From the NCBI GenBank assembly GCA_028874995.1, contig JAPPGM010000055.1:1-39338 (forward strand): a stretch of 39,338 nucleotides of DNA, given 5' to 3'. The position numbers and the translations under genes are program-made. The notes beneath the pieces were generated by a model. It was given only the letters and a program-made list of their open reading frames with translations, made no database searches and had not been told where the DNA came from. Numbering within the stretch: position 1 is the first letter of the stretch; every line of letters begins with the position of its first letter. Of this stretch, positions 1,572 to 36,662 are shown piece by piece. The DNA is from Gemmatimonadota bacterium. GTDB taxonomy: Bacteria; Gemmatimonadota; Gemmatimonadetes; Longimicrobiales; Gaopeijiaceae.

Positions 1572-3107
1572 TTGAACGCACCCGAACAGAGACGCGGGAC
1601 TTCCCGCTTGAAATCTCTCACACCGTACCTCGCGGCCGTGGCCCTCCTCGCGGCCGCCACCCTCCTCACCACCCCCCTCACCGCCCAGCCCCCCCACGAC
1701 ATCGTCCTGGCCGGCGGGCGCGTCATGGACCCCGAAACCGGCCTTGATGCGGTTCGCAATGTCGGCATCCGGGACGGGGCGATCGCCACGATCTCCGAGG
1801 ACCCCCTTTCCGGTGCGGTGGTCCTCGATGTCTCCGGCCTCGTCGTCGCCCCCGGCTTCATCGACCTGCACGCGCACGGGCAGACCAACCGTGCGAACGA
1901 GTTCCAGGCCCGGGACGGGGTCACCACGGCGCTGGAACTGGAGAGCGGGGTGCCGCTCCCGGCCGTGTATCTGGCCCGGCGCGGCGAAGTGGCGATCCTC
2001 AACTTCGGCGCCACCGTCTCGCACATGAACGTGCGTCCACGCGCGATGCCGGGACGGCTGGCGGAACTCGAGCAGGCTCTCGCGAATGTCGAAGAAAACC
2101 CCGCCGGTGCTTTTCGCACGTTCAGTTTCGTGGGCTCCGCCGCCCGCTACGACCCGGTCCACCCCGAGGACTATCCGGCGCTTCGCGACGCCCTGGCCAG
2201 CGGCCTCGCCGACGGCGCCCTCGGGATCGGCATGGCCCACCAGTATTACCCGGGCGCCAACCACGAGGAGATCCTCGAAGTCTTCAAGTTCGCGGCCGAC
2301 GAAGGCGTCACGATCCACACGCATGTGCGCAACATGGGGATCGACGCCATGCAGGAGGTCCTCGCCAACGCCGTAGCGACGGGTGCGTCGCTACACATTG
2401 TGCATGTGAACAGCTCGAGCCTGTGGCGCATCGCCCCGATCCTGGACCTCATCGGCGGCGTGCGCAGCCGCGGCTTCGACGTCACTGTGGAGGCGTATCC
2501 GTACACTGCGGCCTCGACCGGCCTCCAGTCCACGATCTTCGACCCCGGCTGGCAGGAGAGCCTCCGGATCAGCTACGGCGACCTGCAGTGGCAGGACACC
2601 GGCGAGCGGCTGACGGCGGAGACCTTCCAGAGCTACCGGGCCGAGGGCGGCACGGTCATCATCCACATGATGAAGGACGAGTGGATCCGCGAGGCGCTCT
2701 CGCGCGACTTCGTGATGGTCGCATCGGACGGGATGCCGTACGCGCCGGGGGCGCATCCGCGCAGCGCGGGGACCTTCTCGCGTTTCCTGGGGCGGTACGT
2801 GAGGGACGAAGGGCTGATGCCGCTGATGGAGGGGCTGGAAAGGATCACGATCATGCCGGCGCGGCGCCTGGAGCGCATGACGGACCAGGCGCGGCGGAAG
2901 GGGCGGGTGCAGGTGGGGATGGACGCGGATATCACCGTGTTCGACCCGGACAGCATCATCGACACCGCGACGTTCGAGGACGACCTGTCGTTTTCGGTGG
3001 GGGTGATGCATGTGCTGGTGAACGGTGAGTTCGTGGTGCGGGATGGGGAGAATGTCGACGGGGCGATGCCGGGACGGGCGCTGGTGGGGAGGAAGGCCAG
3101 CCGATGA
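1572..3107 (+). CDS. Exported D-aminoacylase-like amidohydrolase
   Basis: This 511-residue member of the amidohydrolase superfamily resembles N-acyl-D-amino-acid deacylases, which hydrolyse N-acyl amino acids with bound zinc. Visible features are a signal peptide ending near LTAQ (about residue 39), the strand VVAPGFIDLHAH with the HxH metal pair at residues 100/102, further His candidates at IHTH (249/251) and IVHV (278), and the conserved Asp in ASDG (about 386). The C-terminal GRVQVGMDADITVFDP segment closes the beta-sandwich domain. The TTG at 1572 has AGAGG 9 nt upstream; the TTG at 1608 would give a shorter signal peptide and is an alternative. It overlaps the next gene by 4 nt, so the two are probably one operon. 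Substrate cannot be read from sequence. Confidence 0.82.
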   Translation: MNAPEQRRGTSRLKSLTPYLAAVALLAAATLLTTPLTAQPPHDIVLAGGRVMDPETGLDAVRNVGIRDGAIATISEDPLSGAVVLDVSGLVVAPGFIDLHAHGQTNRANEFQARDGVTTALELESGVPLPAVYLARRGEVAILNFGATVSHMNVRPRAMPGRLAELEQALANVEENPAGAFRTFSFVGSAARYDPVHPEDYPALRDALASGLADGALGIGMAHQYYPGANHEEILEVFKFAADEGVTIHTHVRNMGIDAMQEVLANAVATGASLHIVHVNSSSLWRIAPILDLIGGVRSRGFDVTVEAYPYTAASTGLQSTIFDPGWQESLRISYGDLQWQDTGERLTAETFQSYRAEGGTVIIHMMKDEWIREALSRDFVMVASDGMPYAPGAHPRSAGTFSRFLGRYVRDEGLMPLMEGLERITIMPARRLERMTDQARRKGRVQVGMDADITVFDPDSIIDTATFEDDLSFSVGVMHVLVNGEFVVRDGENVDGAMPGRALVGRKASR

Positions 3108-4846
3108 GAAAGCTGCTTGCGGGGCCGGCCCTTCTCGCCACTCTCGCCCTGGCGGCCGGCGCCGCCCCCGGCGCCACCGCCCAGACCTACGACATCCTCA
3201 TCCGCAACGCCCGCGTCCTCGACGGCACGGGCAACGACTGGTTCCGGGCCGACATCGCGATCATCGGCGACCGCATCGAGCGCGTCGGCAGCCTTCCCGA
3301 CGCCACGGCCCACCGCACCATTGACGCGACCGGCCTGTATGTTGCGCCCGGCTTCATCGACCTGCACTCGCACGCCGACCGTGCCATGACCTCGGAGCAC
3401 CTCGAGGCGCGCCGCGCGAAGAGCCTGAACAGCCAGGGCCTCACGACGATCATCGGGGCCGCGGACGGGCGCAACGGGAGGTGGCCGATCACCGAGGAGA
3501 TCGCTGCGCTGCGCGACCAGGGCCACGCGATGAACTTCGTCCCCATGGTGGGCCACAGCACCGTGCGCTTTCAGGTCATGGGGAACGATTACGAGCGGGC
3601 GGCAACCCCGGAGGAGATCGCGCAAATGCAGGAGCTGGTGCGAAGCGGCATGGAGGCGGGGGCGTGGGGGTTGGGCGCGGGCGTCGAATACCGGCCGGCG
3701 CGGTTCAGCGATCCGGAAGAGCTGGTCGCGCTTGGGAAGGCGGTGGCGCCGTACGACGGCTTCTATATCGCGCACCAGCGGAGCGAGGCGTCGATGCCGC
3801 TCTGGCAGCTCCCGAGCAACGTGGACGACTGGCCGGTCGACGGGCTGCAGGCGCTCGAGGAGACGATCAACATCGCGCGGGAGGCGGGGATCCGCGTGGT
3901 CGCCAGCCATCACAAGGCGCGGGGGCGCTCCAGCTTCGGCCGCTCCGCGCACGACACGCTGGTGGTGAACGCGGCCCGGGCCAAGGGGCTTGAGGTCTAC
4001 CTGGACGTGTACCCGTACGAGACCTTCGGCGGCGGAGCGCGTCCGATGATCCCCAAGTGGAGCCTGGTGCACGACACGGTGGACACCAGCGGGGGTCGGG
4101 ACAGCCCGGTCTACAACCGGCCCGGCGTCTACGACAGCGCCCGCGTGCACCTGGAGCGGCGCTGGAACGACCCCGCCACACGTGAGCTGATCGCGCGCGA
4201 CATCGCGTGGATCGTCGACCACAACGGGGGGGCGGAGCGGGTGGTGGTGCTGAGCTACCCGGATGAGGCGTTCGTGGGGAAGACGCTGGCGGAGCTTGCG
4301 ACGGAGATGGGGGGCACGTTCCAGGATGTGGTGGTGCACATGGCGCTGAACGGGTTTCCTGGGATGATCGGCGGAGCGAGGACGCGGGGGTACGGCATCC
4401 ACGATGTTGATGTGGTCAACTACTACAGGCAGGAGTACACGGCGACCGCGTCGGATGCGGGGGTCAGCGGGGTGGAGGGGACGCCGTTCGCGTCGGTGGC
4501 GGGCGCGCATCCCCGCCACTTCGGCGCCTTCACCCGCAAGATCGCGCACTACGTGAAGGACCTGAAGACGATCTCGCTGCCGTTTGCAGTGCGTTCGATG
4601 ACGTCGCTGCCGGCGCGGATCATCGGGCTGGAGGACCGGGGGTTGGTGCGCAAGGGGTACAAGGCTGATCTGGTGATCTTTGACTTGGGGCGGCTGCGGG
4701 ATCGGGCGACGGTGCTGGAGCCGGATCTGTTCAGCGAGGGGGTGGATTATGTGATGGTGAATGGGGTGCTGACGGTGGATGGGGGGGAGTTTACGGATGA
4801 GCTGCCGGGGGTGGTGGTGGGGCGGGGAGGGCGGGGGGTGAGTTGA
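3104..4846 (+). CDS. Exported N-acyl-D-amino-acid deacylase family amidohydrolase
   Basis: This 580-residue paralogue of the preceding enzyme has its ATG overlapping the upstream stop in ATGA, which implies translational coupling. A signal peptide ends near GATAQ (residue 27). The metal-binding HSH motif lies at residues 88/90 after APGFID, with further candidate ligands in YIAHQR (224), VVASHH (269/270) and the Asp of TASDAG (451). The layout and length match the D-aminoacylase/dihydroorotase-like branch of the superfamily. The C-terminus carries the usual LVRKGYKADLVIFD strand pair. The tandem pair may act on different N-acylated or D-amino-acid compounds outside the cytoplasm; that division of labour is inference. 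Confidence 0.88.
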   Translation: MRKLLAGPALLATLALAAGAAPGATAQTYDILIRNARVLDGTGNDWFRADIAIIGDRIERVGSLPDATAHRTIDATGLYVAPGFIDLHSHADRAMTSEHLEARRAKSLNSQGLTTIIGAADGRNGRWPITEEIAALRDQGHAMNFVPMVGHSTVRFQVMGNDYERAATPEEIAQMQELVRSGMEAGAWGLGAGVEYRPARFSDPEELVALGKAVAPYDGFYIAHQRSEASMPLWQLPSNVDDWPVDGLQALEETINIAREAGIRVVASHHKARGRSSFGRSAHDTLVVNAARAKGLEVYLDVYPYETFGGGARPMIPKWSLVHDTVDTSGGRDSPVYNRPGVYDSARVHLERRWNDPATRELIARDIAWIVDHNGGAERVVVLSYPDEAFVGKTLAELATEMGGTFQDVVVHMALNGFPGMIGGARTRGYGIHDVDVVNYYRQEYTATASDAGVSGVEGTPFASVAGAHPRHFGAFTRKIAHYVKDLKTISLPFAVRSMTSLPARIIGLEDRGLVRKGYKADLVIFDLGRLRDRATVLEPDLFSEGVDYVMVNGVLTVDGGEFTDELPGVVVGRGGRGVS

Positions 4847-31601: not shown

Positions 31602-32768
31602 ATGTCCACCGAACCCCTCGATCAGAAGCCCCGGATCAGGCTCAGCACCCTGTCCCACGGCGCCGGGTGAGCGTGTAAACTCGGCCAGGCCGAGCTGGCG
31701 CAGGTCCTGCGCCCACTCCTCCCCACCGCCGATCCCCGCGTGCTCGTCGACGCCAGCACCGGGGACGACGCCGCCGTGTATCGTCTCGCCGACGGACGGG
31801 CCCTGGTCGTCACGCTGGACTTCTTCACCCCGATCGTCGACGACCCGTACGATTTCGGCCGGATCGCGGCCGCCAACGCGCTCTCGGACGTGTACGCCAT
31901 GGGGGGGCGGCCGCTCTTCGCGCTTAACCTGCTCTCGTTCCCGCGCGGGCTGCTGGACGAGGGTCTTGCCGAGGAGATCATTCGCGGCGGGGCCGAGAAG
32001 GCCGCCGAAGCGGGGATTCCCGTGCTGGGCGGCCACTCCATCGACGACGCCGAGCCCAAGTACGGAATGGTCGCGGTGGGTGAGGTGAACCCGGACGCGA
32101 TGCTGGCCAACGATGGGGCGCGCGTTGGGGACGATCTGGTGCTGACCAAGCCGCTTGGGACCGGGATCGTGGCGACGGCGGTGAAGGCGGGGAAGTGTCC
32201 ACCGGGGCTGCTGAGCGATGCGGTCGAGTGGATGGCGAGGCTGAACCGGGGGGCGGCGGAGGCGGCCCGGGCGGTGGGGGCGCATGCGGCCACGGATGTG
32301 ACAGGGTATGGGCTAACGGGGCACCTGGGGATCATGGCTCGTGCGTCCGGGGTGTCGGCACGGATCGAGGCGGCCAGGGTGCCGCTGCTGGAGGGGGTGG
32401 AGGAGCTGGTGGAGGCGGGGTTCGTGCCGGGGGGGACGCGGAGGAATCGGGCGGATGGGGCGGGGAGCGTGACGGTTGAGGGGGAGGTGTCCGAGGCGGT
32501 TCAGGTGCTGCTGGCGGACGCGCAGACTTCGGGTGGGTTGTTGATTTCGTGTCCGCCGGAGCGGACCGAGGAGCTGCTGCGCGAACTCGAACTGGGGGGC
32601 GAGAGCGGGGTGGTGGTGGGGAAGGTGGGCGGGGGGATGACTGGACACGTCGTCATCGCCGGGAAGCGGGGTGTCGAGAACTTGCTCGTGGCACCGGAAG
32701 CCCGGACGGACGAGCTGGCCGCGCCGCGGAAGGGGCATCGTCATCGGGAGCCACCCCCGCTGGGGTAG
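31602..32768 (+). CDS. selD: Selenide, water dikinase, probable selenoprotein (in-frame TGA)
   Basis: SelD makes selenophosphate from selenide and ATP, the selenium donor for Sec-tRNA and selenouridine. From ATG 31602 the frame meets TGA at 31668-31670 (codon 23) and continues without any other stop to 32768, giving 388 residues. The context reads SHGAG-(TGA)-ACKLGQAEL. In E. coli SelD the catalytic Cys17 and Lys20 sit in G-A-G-C-G-C-K, so the TGA falls exactly at the Cys/Sec position and Lys26 takes the Lys role. Downstream family blocks are DASTGDDAAVYRLADG, GGRPLFALNLLSFP, VLGGHSIDD, TDVTGYGLTGHLG and DAQTSGGLL. Automatic callers would probably start at 31740 and lose the active site. Confidence 0.92.
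31680..31694 (+). promoter_or_regulatory. Candidate SECIS hairpin after the selD TGA
   Basis: CTCGGC (31680-31685), loop CAG and GCCGAG (31689-31694) form a perfect 6-bp stem-loop starting 9 nt after the TGA at 31668-31670. Bacterial SECIS elements are hairpins in the coding region directly 3' of the Sec codon, recognised by SelB. The position fits. The loop sequence differs from the E. coli fdhF element, as is common in other phyla. Confidence 0.6.
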
Positions 32769-32814
32769 CCCGGACTCGGTTGTCACCCGCGCGGACCGAC
32801 CGGACAAGCGTCGG

Positions 32815-33470
32815 CCTGCGTCGTCGCTGCCTGTTGCAAACCTGCCCACGACCGGGTGATCAAGCCCTTCCGAGCGGGCAGCCGTAACGACATCCGCAAA
32901 CCGGTCGGGAATCTCCGCGGCCACCGACCGGCAGGTTTCAAGCATCTCTTCCGGTGAAAGTCCCACGTCCGCGGCAAACCTTTCCCGGTGCCTGGTCCGG
33001 ATGTACCCAAGTCGTGCCTCGCCGCCCACCTTCATCGCCAGCTTGAGCCTCGGCGTGTAGTGGCCAGGATAGGGCAACGCGCCGGCCAGGTCGTAGAGGG
33101 GAGCCAGCCTGACGTTGCCCGCGGCGCCGATCAGCAGTGAGAGTTCCTGGCGTGCGCGTCGGTGCCCCCCAGGACCCGGTTCAGGGCGAATCGCCTTGCA
33201 GGACACCGGCACGTTCCGGCCCGGCGAACTGAACTGAACCACCCCCGCGCAGTCCTCACCGGTGGCCCTCAGCAGCGAGACGCGCTACGCGCCGACACCT
33301 GAAACCTCCTCGCCCAACGGGCCAGCACGGTTTTGGTTGTTGGGCAGGAGCCCCCAAAGCGATGGCTCGATCGTGTCGTGACCGTGCCTCGCGGCTGTCA
33401 GCGGCATCGAGATGGACAGCAGGTATGCCCTGTCGTATTCTCCAGCTCGATCTCCACAACCCACTGCCGT
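32815..33470 (-). pseudogene. hipA: Degraded hipA (HipA-type kinase toxin) with internal deletion
   Basis: Minus-strand pieces in several frames add up to a HipA skeleton: SISMPLTAARHGHDTIEPSL and LWGLLPNNQN (about 33350-33430), VLARWARRFQVSAR in another frame, then SLLRATGEDCAGVVQF after a stop, and directly RQELSLLIGAAGNVRLAPLY, KLAMKVGGEARLGYIR and SEGLDHPVVGRF. The kinase core expected between GEDCAG-x-VQF and the C-terminal block is missing. At least two frameshifts and a large internal deletion make it non-functional. HipA phosphorylates glutamyl-tRNA synthetase in the classical system. No hipB was recognised. The reading frame continuing below 32815 is antisense to selD and meaningless. 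Confidence 0.8.
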
Positions 33471-33622
33471 CCGACGGCCGCAGCACGTGCTAGCTGCCGC
33501 TGGGTCCCTCCCCGCGACCGCCTCGCCAGGCAGATCATCAGGCCGAAGGCAATGTAGGCGAACGGCTATAGGCGTACCATGTCCGCGAAAGACGCCTCAC
33601 CCAAACTGCGACAATCGACCGG

Positions 33623-34768
33623 TTACCCCATTTCCAGCCACGTACACCCCGAGGTGTCGATCCGGTACATGCGCACCCAGGACTCCAGTCCGTCTTCTCT
33701 CTCGTTCAACCGACGATCCAAGAGAAAGATGGTGTCCCGCACCACGGTATGGATCGGGCGCAACGCCTTGAAGTGCGGCACCAAAGAGTCGACGCACGCC
33801 GACTTGCGGTCGGGCGCGATCACGGTGAGGTAGATGTCTGCCGTGATGATTCCGTGGGGTGGCTCTCCCTTGAGCGTCGCGTCGTGATGGAACACCACCG
33901 TCGCTCCGTCGGACAGGCGGTAGAGACCCTCCAAGCCCGAGCTTATTTCGTGAGCGTTCCCTCGAAACTCGTAGGAATCAAGCCGTTGCTGGATGTCGTC
34001 CGGAACGCCTCTCCTTCGCACGGCAGGCGGGTCCACGGTATCCACCACCTGCCCGTCCCAAGTCGACAAGAAAATCTCGTTGAGACCGCCCATCGCCGAC
34101 ATGATGGTGTCCGGCCAGGCCACCACACTGCCCCGCGCACGAAACGCCGCAAACCTGCCGACATATCCATCCGGGCGTATCGCGGAACGCACGTATTCGT
34201 CAGGCAAGGGAACAACGTAGTCGATATGGTCGTGCGGATAGCGCCAGATCGCCACCGAAGTCAGACCAGCGATCTCCCGTGAAGGGAATACAACGGCGCC
34301 GTCAACCACCGTGTAAGTGTCAACGCCGAGTCGCCCTTGGTACCTGAGAGCGTGGAGATAGGTCCCGTCAGTGCGGGAGAAGAGCTGCAACAGCTTCCGT
34401 TCATCATCCGAGCCAACCACAATGGTGTCATTCAACGTGAACGCGGCACCCAAATCCAGGAACTCTCCGGGACCGGGACCGGGCCGGCCGTAGGTCTGTA
34501 GGAGGCGTCCATCACGGTCATAGCGGAGAATCCGATCTTCGAAGAAGTCGGAGATCAAGAACGAGCCGTCCGTGGTGTCGGGCACCAGGCTGAAGGGGTT
34601 GCCGATGTAGAACCTGTCGGTTTCGTCGAGGAGGACACTGTCTGTGGGAAGCAATCCGGGCCCTGTCGCACTGCGCCTCGCGCTGCCGCCGGACTCTGTC
34701 GAGCAGCTCACGCACAGCAGAAGTCCGGCGGCAACTGAGGGGCTTCGTCGCATGAGCAGACGTCGCAC
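33623..34768 (-). CDS. Six-bladed beta-propeller lipoprotein, peptide-operon member (paralogue 7)
   Basis: This protein of up to 381 residues starts at the GTG at 34768 (TAGG 8 nt upstream) or the ATG at 34753. The signal peptide ends at the lipobox LCVSC near residue 22. The propeller signature is GRPGPGPGEF, preceded by GSFLISDFFEDRILRYDRDG. Near the C-terminus it has KSACVDSLVPHF and DTSGCTW, two Cys that might pair. It follows the 81-residue Cys-rich peptide gene by 9 nt and is the third gene of an operon beginning at 35655. In Bacteroidota similar propellers sit beside NVEALA peptides, which makes peptide binding or handling an attractive guess. Confidence 0.82.
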   Translation of the reverse strand: MRRLLMRRSPSVAAGLLLCVSCSTESGGSARRSATGPGLLPTDSVLLDETDRFYIGNPFSLVPDTTDGSFLISDFFEDRILRYDRDGRLLQTYGRPGPGPGEFLDLGAAFTLNDTIVVGSDDERKLLQLFSRTDGTYLHALRYQGRLGVDTYTVVDGAVVFPSREIAGLTSVAIWRYPHDHIDYVVPLPDEYVRSAIRPDGYVGRFAAFRARGSVVAWPDTIMSAMGGLNEIFLSTWDGQVVDTVDPPAVRRRGVPDDIQQRLDSYEFRGNAHEISSGLEGLYRLSDGATVVFHHDATLKGEPPHGIITADIYLTVIAPDRKSACVDSLVPHFKALRPIHTVVRDTIFLLDRRLNEREDGLESWVRMYRIDTSGCTWLEMG

Positions 34769-34777
34769 CAGTGTGGC

Positions 34778-35023
34778 CTACTTCTTGTCGACGACGACCA
34801 CGATTGGCTTCATCTTGAAACAGCGGCATGTCGGGTAGTCCAGCGACGGACACGGGTCCACGCACTTCGAGATAGAGTCGAACCAATACGGCCCCGTCGT
34901 CCCGTCATCGTCCTCGCCCTCCTGGGCGGTCATGACCCTTCCGGTCATCGCCAGCGCTCCAAGCGCCAGAAGGACCATGGCCACCAGCGGAATCCGGGTC
35001 CTGAGTCTGCGTACTATGTTCAT
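34778..35023 (-). CDS. Exported small Cys-rich peptide precursor (NVEALA-like arrangement)
   Basis: This is an 81-residue precursor. The basic start MNIVRRLRTRIP leads into VAMVLLALGALAMTGRVMTA with likely cleavage near TAQ-EG (residues 33-34), leaving a mature peptide of about 48 residues. The mature part opens acidic (EGEDDDGTTGPYWFDSISKC) and has four cysteines, C-x3-C-x7-C-x-C in CVDPCPSLDYPTCRCF, then ends basic with VVVVDKK. Its ATG overlaps the stop of the thioredoxin-like gene (ATGA), and the propeller gene follows after 9 nt. The layout (short exported peptide with C-terminal Cys next to a six-bladed propeller) resembles NVEALA loci in Bacteroidota, though the NVEALA motif itself is absent. 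No homologue is known to me. Confidence 0.75.
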   Translation of the reverse strand: MNIVRRLRTRIPLVAMVLLALGALAMTGRVMTAQEGEDDDGTTGPYWFDSISKCVDPCPSLDYPTCRCFKMKPIVVVVDKK

Positions 35024-35655
35024 GAGTAACCCCTTTCAAGGGTTGTGGGAAACGGGGCCGGCCTTTTGCGGGCCCCCGGGAGATTGCGGGAAGAGCTGAA
35101 AGGTGTTGGCGCGCGGGCTTCACCCCAGGACAGCGGCGATATCGTAGTTTGATCGGAAGAGTCGGCCTGCTCGGTCTCGGTTATCTTTCGGAGCGCCTCC
35201 TCAAGCGTGGCGTCCCGAAGTTCCGCGAGAAGCGGGCTGGTAGATACGCCCCGAAGTAGCGGCGAACGGTACACGAGCTCGTTGCCGGAAAAGACGAGCT
35301 CGACGGGCAACTGGTCCGGCTCCGGCTCCGGCGAATCCGATAGAGTGCCCGAGACGGGTAGCGGCGCCAACCGCACTCTTTCCCAATCCATCGGGACTCG
35401 TGACAAGACGAGGCGAAACCTCTCGGGATGGGCAGCCCGCCATTCGAGCCATTGGGCAAGCAGGCTGGTACAGGAGAAGCACTGGCTGGGATCGAGCACG
35501 AGCACCACGCCGTTGTTGTGTTCCCGGTAGATCGAACCGAGTGTACCACCCTCACGAAGCGCCCAATCCACAGGAGAGTTCGCTCCCGGGGCGCAGGCGA
35601 TGAACAGGATCATCCCTATTGCAGATCCCCAAACAGTTCTTCCTGCTCGGACCAT
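35020..35655 (-). CDS. Thioredoxin-like lipoprotein with CFSC motif
   Basis: This 211-residue protein starts at the ATG at 35655, chosen for the AAGGAGAGGG Shine-Dalgarno; the frame is open further upstream but without signals. Signal peptide GMILFIAC gives a lipid anchor near residue 21. Then GVVLVLDPSQCFSCTSLLAQ contains a CxxC motif after a beta-strand, as in the thioredoxin fold, followed by RFRLVLSRVPMDWERVRL. The last ~45 residues are Ser/Pro/Arg-rich and may be disordered. As first gene of the operon with the Cys-rich peptide, it could reduce, oxidise or carry that peptide's cysteines. No classical TlpA/DsbA sequence is present, so the fold is inferred. Confidence 0.7.
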   Translation of the reverse strand: MVRAGRTVWGSAIGMILFIACAPGANSPVDWALREGGTLGSIYREHNNGVVLVLDPSQCFSCTSLLAQWLEWRAAHPERFRLVLSRVPMDWERVRLAPLPVSGTLSDSPEPEPDQLPVELVFSGNELVYRSPLLRGVSTSPLLAELRDATLEEALRKITETEQADSSDQTTISPLSWGEARAPTPFSSSRNLPGARKRPAPFPTTLERGYS

Positions 35656-36131
35656 ACTCCCTCTCCTTCGGACCCAGTGTTTCGACCGAACCTGCGCGAG
35701 GCTGTCGGGAAAGATCATGGGCGCGGAGAGAAGTATCAATGGCATTTCGCGTGGTAGATTTGTCGTTTTGCTGGGTGCCCCCCAACAATGGACTTGCCCT
35801 GTCGCGCGATCTTGACAATCCTGTCATAGTAAGTGTCGGCGCGTATCGGGCGATTGGCGGCGGGTTTGGAATCCCGGCAATCTCGCCAGCTTCAAGCGAC
35901 TCGACGACGTGCCGAGAATCTCACATTGTGAACTAGGCGGGAGCGGATGAGACTGCCGTACGGTGGGACCAACGAGGTGTTGGCGGGTGAATCAGTGTCG
36001 ATTCGTGGAAGCGCCCGGATCGCACCGAAAGAGCGACCCGTGAGGCGCCACAAGGTGTGCCGGCTTCGATAGCATGGAGAGTCGCCACGCAAACCGATCA
36101 CGACAACGACGGACTTCCTGAACCCTTCCAG
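35656..36131. other. Divergent intergenic region between peptide operon and AraC-type gene
   Basis: This 476-bp stretch has no convincing gene. It contains a TTGACA at 35812-35817 and a short inverted repeat TGACA-ATCC-TGTCA (35813-35826). AT content is higher around 35750-35840, so promoters for both directions probably lie here. Short ORFs within it lack start signals and family resemblance. The divergent AraC-type gene suggests the region could also hold its binding sites. Confidence 0.4.
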
Positions 36132-36662
36132 ATGACCAACTACAAGCAACTCCACCGATCCCCTCTGCCCTTCAACGAGGCAATCACACCGTACCTGCGC
36201 GCCTGTCCTGGTCCAGCCATTGCCGAAAAGGGACTCCGCATCATGGCGTACCAGTACGTCCCCGGCATTTCCGGACTCAAGCAGACTGACGGGGCGGCGC
36301 CTTTCCGATCGGTCAAGGACATTGCCGAAGCCGTCTGTTGCAGTCCGGGACACCTTTCGCGAGTGGCTCTCGATCGCGGGTATTCCTTTGGCCTGGCCGT
36401 CCGCTGGATCACGTTGCTGCAGGGCATCGCACTTCGTCAGTCAGGCTGCGCCGGGAAGTCCGTTGCACGGCGTCTCGGCTTCTCTGATGCTGCGGGATGG
36501 ACGCGGTTCACCCGGAGGCTGATCGGAAAAACGCCGAGCCAACTACCTCACATGCCAGTTGAAGACTGGGCGGTCGTCGCGAGAGCGGTGGTGTTTCTTG
36601 CTCCTTACCGGAGTGGGTCCAAGTCCGGGATGTCAATCCTTAGCCTGCCCACTACCGGATGA
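36132..36662 (+). CDS. AraC-type helix-turn-helix regulator
   Basis: The 176-residue frame starts at ATG 36132 (MTNYKQLHRSPLPF); a GTG at 36057 is an upstream alternative. The middle reads SVKDIAEAVCCSPGHLSRVA, then VRWITLLQGIALRQSG, KSVARRLGFSDAAGWTRFTR and LIGKTPSQLP, two helix-turn-helix motifs in the AraC order, the second with the usual G-F-S-D-x-x-x-W-T-R-F. No ligand domain is visible, so it is a DNA-binding domain with a short N-terminal part. The last 30 residues run into sequence related to hipA. Being divergent from the peptide operon, it is a candidate regulator of it. Confidence 0.78.
   Translation: MTNYKQLHRSPLPFNEAITPYLRACPGPAIAEKGLRIMAYQYVPGISGLKQTDGAAPFRSVKDIAEAVCCSPGHLSRVALDRGYSFGLAVRWITLLQGIALRQSGCAGKSVARRLGFSDAAGWTRFTRRLIGKTPSQLPHMPVEDWAVVARAVVFLAPYRSGSKSGMSILSLPTTG

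Follow-up and report, generated by a model that had tools for sequence, protein, structure and literature searches.

Do a thioredoxin-like lipoprotein, a small cysteine-rich peptide and a propeller lipoprotein that are encoded side by side in a Gemmatimonadota genome belong together, and what could such a trio do at the cell envelope? The genes lie within the window (the whole 39,338-nucleotide stretch of DNA that was analyzed), and the earlier note proposed that they form an independent system for peptide secretion and thiol modification, with the propeller as a binding or export partner.

The window encodes the trio on the minus strand. The CFSC gene (35020-35655, minus strand) specifies a 211-amino-acid thioredoxin-fold lipoprotein with the motif C59-F-S-C62 and a lipobox cysteine (Cys21), an assignment based on the ORF and its ribosome site. 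The peptide gene (34778-35023, minus strand) specifies an 81-amino-acid exported precursor, MNIVRRLRTRIPLVAMVLLALGALAMTGRVMTAQEGEDDDGTTGPYWFDSISKCVDPCPSLDYPTCRCFKMKPIVVVVDKK, which has a hydrophobic export signal, four cysteines spaced C54-x3-C58-x7-C66-x-C68 and a C-terminal KPIVVVV strand; here the ORF is backed by relatives and by the substitution pattern. The propeller gene (33623-34768, minus strand, GTG start) specifies a 381-amino-acid six-bladed NHL-type lipoprotein with the sequence GPGPGEF and two cysteines, Cys325 and Cys375, as judged from the ORF and a structure model. The TGA stop of the CFSC gene lies within an ATGA shared with the peptide ATG at 35023, a 4-nucleotide overlap, and 9 nucleotides separate the peptide stop at 34778 from the propeller GTG at 34768. 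The ORF listing thus bears out the genes, junctions and precursor architecture read by eye in the earlier note. Purine-rich Shine-Dalgarno-like sequences precede the ATG codons of the CFSC gene (GGAGAGGGAGT) and the peptide gene (AAAGGGGTTACTC). The longest possible CFSC ORF begins at 35745, and the start at 35655 is favored because the ribosome site precedes it. Inspection revealed no obvious Shine-Dalgarno-like sequence upstream of the propeller GTG, so translational coupling would fit.

Related cassettes occur widely in the phylum. Searches with the CFSC protein and with profiles recovered about 41 cassettes, several of them near-identical copies and hence not independent, from some 35 Gemmatimonadota genomes that represent several families of the class. 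For each cassette, the ORFs were listed and matches to profiles recorded. A phylum-wide sample placed the cassette in 31 of 395 genomes, or about one in twelve. When the peptide alone was searched against 98 related genomes, it found relatives that score weakly but are genuine: L002 (G009, E 6e-8) and L003 (G033, E 6e-5). Both are flanked by a gene for a CFSC-type lipoprotein on one side and one for a propeller on the other. The trio is linked in at least four gene orders: CFSC-peptide-propeller (the window, G009, G033 and G094), peptide-propeller-CFSC (G006, G019, G010, G163 and G122), propeller-peptide-CFSC (G012) and peptide-CFSC-propeller (G195, G146 and G230). That linkage persists despite reordering is strong evidence for joint function. 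One exception is G001, where peptide and propeller genes are neighbors without a CFSC gene.

The peptide gene is specifically tied to these loci. By inspection and manual count, it was found at about 35 of the 41 cassettes, so the possibility that it is not conserved beside the propeller in relatives fell away. Under a strict rule that demands an export signal and the pattern C-x2,3-C-xn-C-x0,2-C, with every start codon permitted, the small four-cysteine ORF that the earlier note suggested looking for beside propellers turned up at 21 of the 35 cassette loci, whereas the 28 loci of other propellers from the same genome had none; a looser cysteine rule returned 27/35 and 4/28 (generic propellers), respectively. 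Furthermore, CFSC and propeller distances are correlated over 26 cassettes (r 0.93, and 0.58 for deep pairs), a value that none of 2000 permutations reached. Beyond the CFSC, propeller and peptide genes, no gene family recurs around the cassettes, and no recurring transporter, protease or radical-SAM gene was found near them; the other neighbor clusters are frames antisense to the propeller or are limited to near relatives. Export and maturation would therefore have to rest on the trio and the housekeeping Sec system. Because the trio is met repeatedly in the phylum, and in varying gene order, we regard the three-gene module as real with near certainty.

The peptides vary strongly from cassette to cassette around a conserved core, C-x2,3-C-xn-C-x-C. 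Comparison of close copies gave dN/dS values of 0.18-0.44 for the peptide gene in one clade and 0.47-1.02 in another, alongside 0.20-0.37 for CFSC and 0.14-0.23 for the propeller; most values for the peptide gene lie between 0.2 and 0.9. By these substitution patterns the peptide ORF is a coding gene, which answers the objection that it might not be one, and it is the fastest-evolving of the three while keeping its cysteines. In 24 of 28 cases the mature peptide has an even cysteine count, and most mature peptides are acidic or neutral; both observations rely on cleavage sites set by a crude rule, which probably cuts the window peptide a few residues early. The PIIV tail is absent from many distant peptides. 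The G331 cassette (L088:951-1373) encodes two different cysteine-rich peptides in tandem.

The CFSC protein is predicted to adopt a thioredoxin fold with the matching strand-helix order (pLDDT 80.7), and the lipobox cysteine (Cys21) is present in at least 90% of its relatives. The nearest structures to the model are ResA-, CcmG- and peroxiredoxin-like chains (Z 8-9.5). It resembles the ResA/TlpA/CcmG proteins (ResA Z 8.8, CcmG Z 8.2) in that the CxxC starts the first long helix, but in the CFSC family the first cysteine is dispensable and the second invariant, and peroxiredoxin-like chains match equally well. The window protein matches neither Redoxin nor Thioredoxin in Pfam, and a sequence search of solved structures with the CFSC family yielded chance matches only.

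This pattern bears directly on the proposed thiol chemistry. C62 is present in all 41 cassettes, whereas C59 is missing in 8 of them, where it is replaced by W, Y, T, V, L or A. The first cysteine of a standard thioredoxin CxxC is the nucleophile, so the CFSC protein cannot act as an ordinary disulfide enzyme in every cassette. Despite the CxxC in the window, the catalytic CxxC with a first-cysteine nucleophile that would mark a TlpA/ResA protein is not kept family-wide. Four of the eight cassettes without the first cysteine still have a four- to six-cysteine peptide, which indicates that redox folding is not always needed. A nearby peptide gene was missing from 4 of the 8 cassettes without the first cysteine and from 2 of the 33 with it (Fisher p 0.009, uncorrected for relatedness), and some of these absences fall at contig edges. 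A strict link between CxxC and peptide was discarded, as it was partly an artefact of taking the longest start codon; once all starts were tried, G003, G417 and G084 proved to have a peptide, and the association weakened. A peroxiredoxin reading of the single-cysteine members was likewise set aside, since TxxC occurs in G084 only. The idea of thiol modification is weakened by the losses of the first cysteine.

The propeller is modelled as a six-bladed NHL-type protein (pLDDT 88), whose fold matches NHL and Bacteroides propellers at Z of about 20-23. Among the top-ranking structures are two exported propellers of Bacteroides, BF0058 (4raa; Z 19.7 over 300 residues) and DUF4221 (3s9j; Z 22.7 over 324 residues). 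Identity to these is 9-13%, however, and since eukaryotic NHL domains such as Brat score just as high (Z 23), little about function can be read from the fold. The window propeller is sub-threshold to Phytase-like and to DUF5128 (14.5 bits, cut-off 22.9); 5 of 16 cassette propellers match DUF5128 with E below 0.01, and some show weak Phytase-like matches. None of the three window proteins reaches a curated family cut-off. Cys325 and Cys375 are invariant in cassette propellers and have no counterpart in generic ones. The 4.5-Mb genome that contains the window has some 60 GPGEF-type propeller matches (for example L040-L067), nearly all without this cysteine pair. One other propeller of the cassette subfamily is encoded on contig C175, and neither a CFSC nor a peptide gene was found near it.

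The trio is thus a real and apparently undescribed cell-envelope system. A literature search for the arrangement found no description, in agreement with the earlier note, which knew of none in this lineage. A conserved exported cysteine-rich peptide linked to a propeller and a thioredoxin-like lipoprotein holds up as a unit outside the named families that were searched.

We tentatively propose, at somewhat short of an even chance, that the three genes form a single module whose products assemble into a small complex at the envelope, in which a disulfide-rich peptide is folded with the help of the CFSC protein and bound to the propeller. The peptide would be exported by Sec and lose its signal peptide to give a mature form of about 45 residues, whose four cysteines could close into two disulfides. 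The thioredoxin-like lipoprotein would assist this folding, as a redox catalyst where CxxC is present and perhaps as a thiol-binding holdase where the second cysteine stands alone. The folded peptide may then dock on the propeller through its aromatic face and, in the window's clade, its C-terminal PIIV strand, and would serve as the propeller's small subunit or bound ligand in the periplasm or on the outer side of the envelope. Nothing among the cassette products resembles an export channel.

Several results count for the envelope complex: linkage in at least four gene orders, the enrichment of the peptide at cassette loci (21/35 and 0/28), the correlated distances, the dN/dS values, the even cysteine counts, the invariant cysteine pair of the propeller, the absence of any other recurring gene, the Fisher association and the joint damage in a close relative described below. 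It is weakened by the missing first cysteine in 8 of 41 cassettes, the frequent absence of the PIIV tail and the CFSC-less pair in G001.

The peptide might instead be set free as a signal or an antagonist; the propeller would then be its receptor or confer immunity to it, and the thioredoxin-like lipoprotein would aid its folding. Such a role would suit the fastest-evolving of the three products, its strong variation between cassettes, and a patchy cassette that apparently moves between lineages. However, most mature peptides are acidic or neutral, where a typical antimicrobial peptide would be cationic, dN/dS of the peptide gene is not clearly above 1, and neither a dedicated exporter nor a protease or sensor kinase recurs at the cassettes. 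We therefore consider a free peptide unlikely.

The trio also resembles the parts of a periplasmic enzyme. Methylamine and quinohemoprotein amine dehydrogenase clusters encode a small cysteine-rich subunit with a propeller subunit, and the mau cluster adds a thioredoxin-like factor. By analogy, peptide and propeller could be small and large subunits, and the CFSC protein a MauD-like assembly factor. The same logic of clustered parts and the weak Phytase-like matches of some propellers favor this comparison. It is nevertheless improbable, since the peptide is very short when mature and has no conserved tryptophan column, the propeller is six-bladed rather than seven-bladed, and no cofactor-maturation gene recurs at the cassettes.

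Alternatively, the C-x2,3-C and C-x-C pairs could bind a metal ion, making the peptide a metal carrier or sensor that works with the propeller. The paired spacing would suit metal binding too, but the even cysteine counts beyond four in several members and the neighboring thioredoxin-like protein fit disulfides better, and no metal transporter or regulator recurs at the cassettes, which leaves this reading a slim chance.

NVEALA precursors of Bacteroidota are encoded beside six-bladed propellers, and the trio shares with NVEALA (PF14055) a short exported precursor and such a propeller side by side. A six-bladed propeller adjoins the peptide in nearly all cassettes, a feature that does not by itself define NVEALA. 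The trio differs in its constant third part, the thioredoxin-like lipoprotein, in its conserved C-x2,3-C-xn-C-x-C core, and in the lack of a sequence match: none of 28 peptides matches PF14055 at E up to 1, the relevant NCBIfam precursor models do not match the peptide family, and the trio's own genome has no NVEALA match, whereas a control Bacteroides genome does. NVEALA membership was rejected on these profile searches, and the kinship raised by the earlier note finds no support. That the trio could still be a Gemmatimonadota branch of NVEALA-type precursor systems, as the BF0058 and DUF4221 fold matches, the DUF5128 matches of the propellers and a sub-threshold DUF6520 match of one peptide might hint, is a long shot given that neither NVEALA in Pfam nor any precursor model in NCBIfam matches a peptide.

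The closest relative found, L106 (isolate RHO3_bin_31), offers a view of the module in apparent decay. Its positions 2356-4100 align to 33446-35816 of the window, with 81-91% nucleotide identity over the region. The CFSC gene of L106 stops directly after the CFSC motif, its peptide has lost the first two cysteines through an in-frame deletion, and its propeller is broken into two ORFs. Damage to all three genes together is consistent with a module that the cell can do without altogether; an assembly error is possible.

Two other genes adjoin the operon in the window. An AraC-type HTH gene lies on the opposite strand (36057-36662, plus strand) and is retained in L106. It was rejected as a fourth part of the module, as a homolog occurs in L106 only and G043 has a different HTH gene. 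A HipA C-terminal remnant (32313-33242, minus strand) borders the operon as well; at the corresponding place, L106 (4119-4711) encodes a HipB-like HTH protein followed by an N-terminal piece of HipA.

The distribution of the cassette is patchy, and it appears to move between lineages. One cassette form occurs at 87-99% nucleotide identity in records from different families, among which one bears the title Candidatus Palauibacter denitrificans. In five records of different lineages (L098-L102), the similarity of the shared segment ends at nearly one point, near L100:3128, beside a leucine-rich-repeat coding sequence. The shared form and its common end point suggest that the cassette moved laterally in recent times, or that some records are mis-binned. 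The collection scan used a closer CFSC set, since a profile built from all 14 CFSC proteins had proved too diverse, and it therefore covers close relatives only. Nearly all of its named matches are metagenome-assembled genomes of Gemmatimonadota, and two records titled Gammaproteobacteria carry the shared form. The title of one of these (L098, RHO1_bin_70) looks wrong; the record appears to equal G405, which is placed in the window's own family. Carriage of the cassette by a phage or plasmid was considered and dropped, since there were no matches.

Gemmatimonadota are widespread in soils and marine hosts, with few isolates and few described secreted systems. The trio gives them a compact, phylum-recurrent unit whose peptide matches no named family in the libraries searched. 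Its molecules are short and cheaply testable: two partner proteins and a peptide some 45 residues long. They also provide a clear example of a thioredoxin-like protein in which the first CxxC cysteine can be lost while the second never is, and so a place to ask for the reason. We speculate, as a possible though doubtful extension, that this is a laterally moving, phylum-wide envelope system in which a fast-evolving, disulfide-rich peptide has its own thioredoxin-like lipoprotein to fold it and a dedicated propeller lipoprotein to display it. The two parts would then act together as a surface ligand, sensor or enzyme of a new class.
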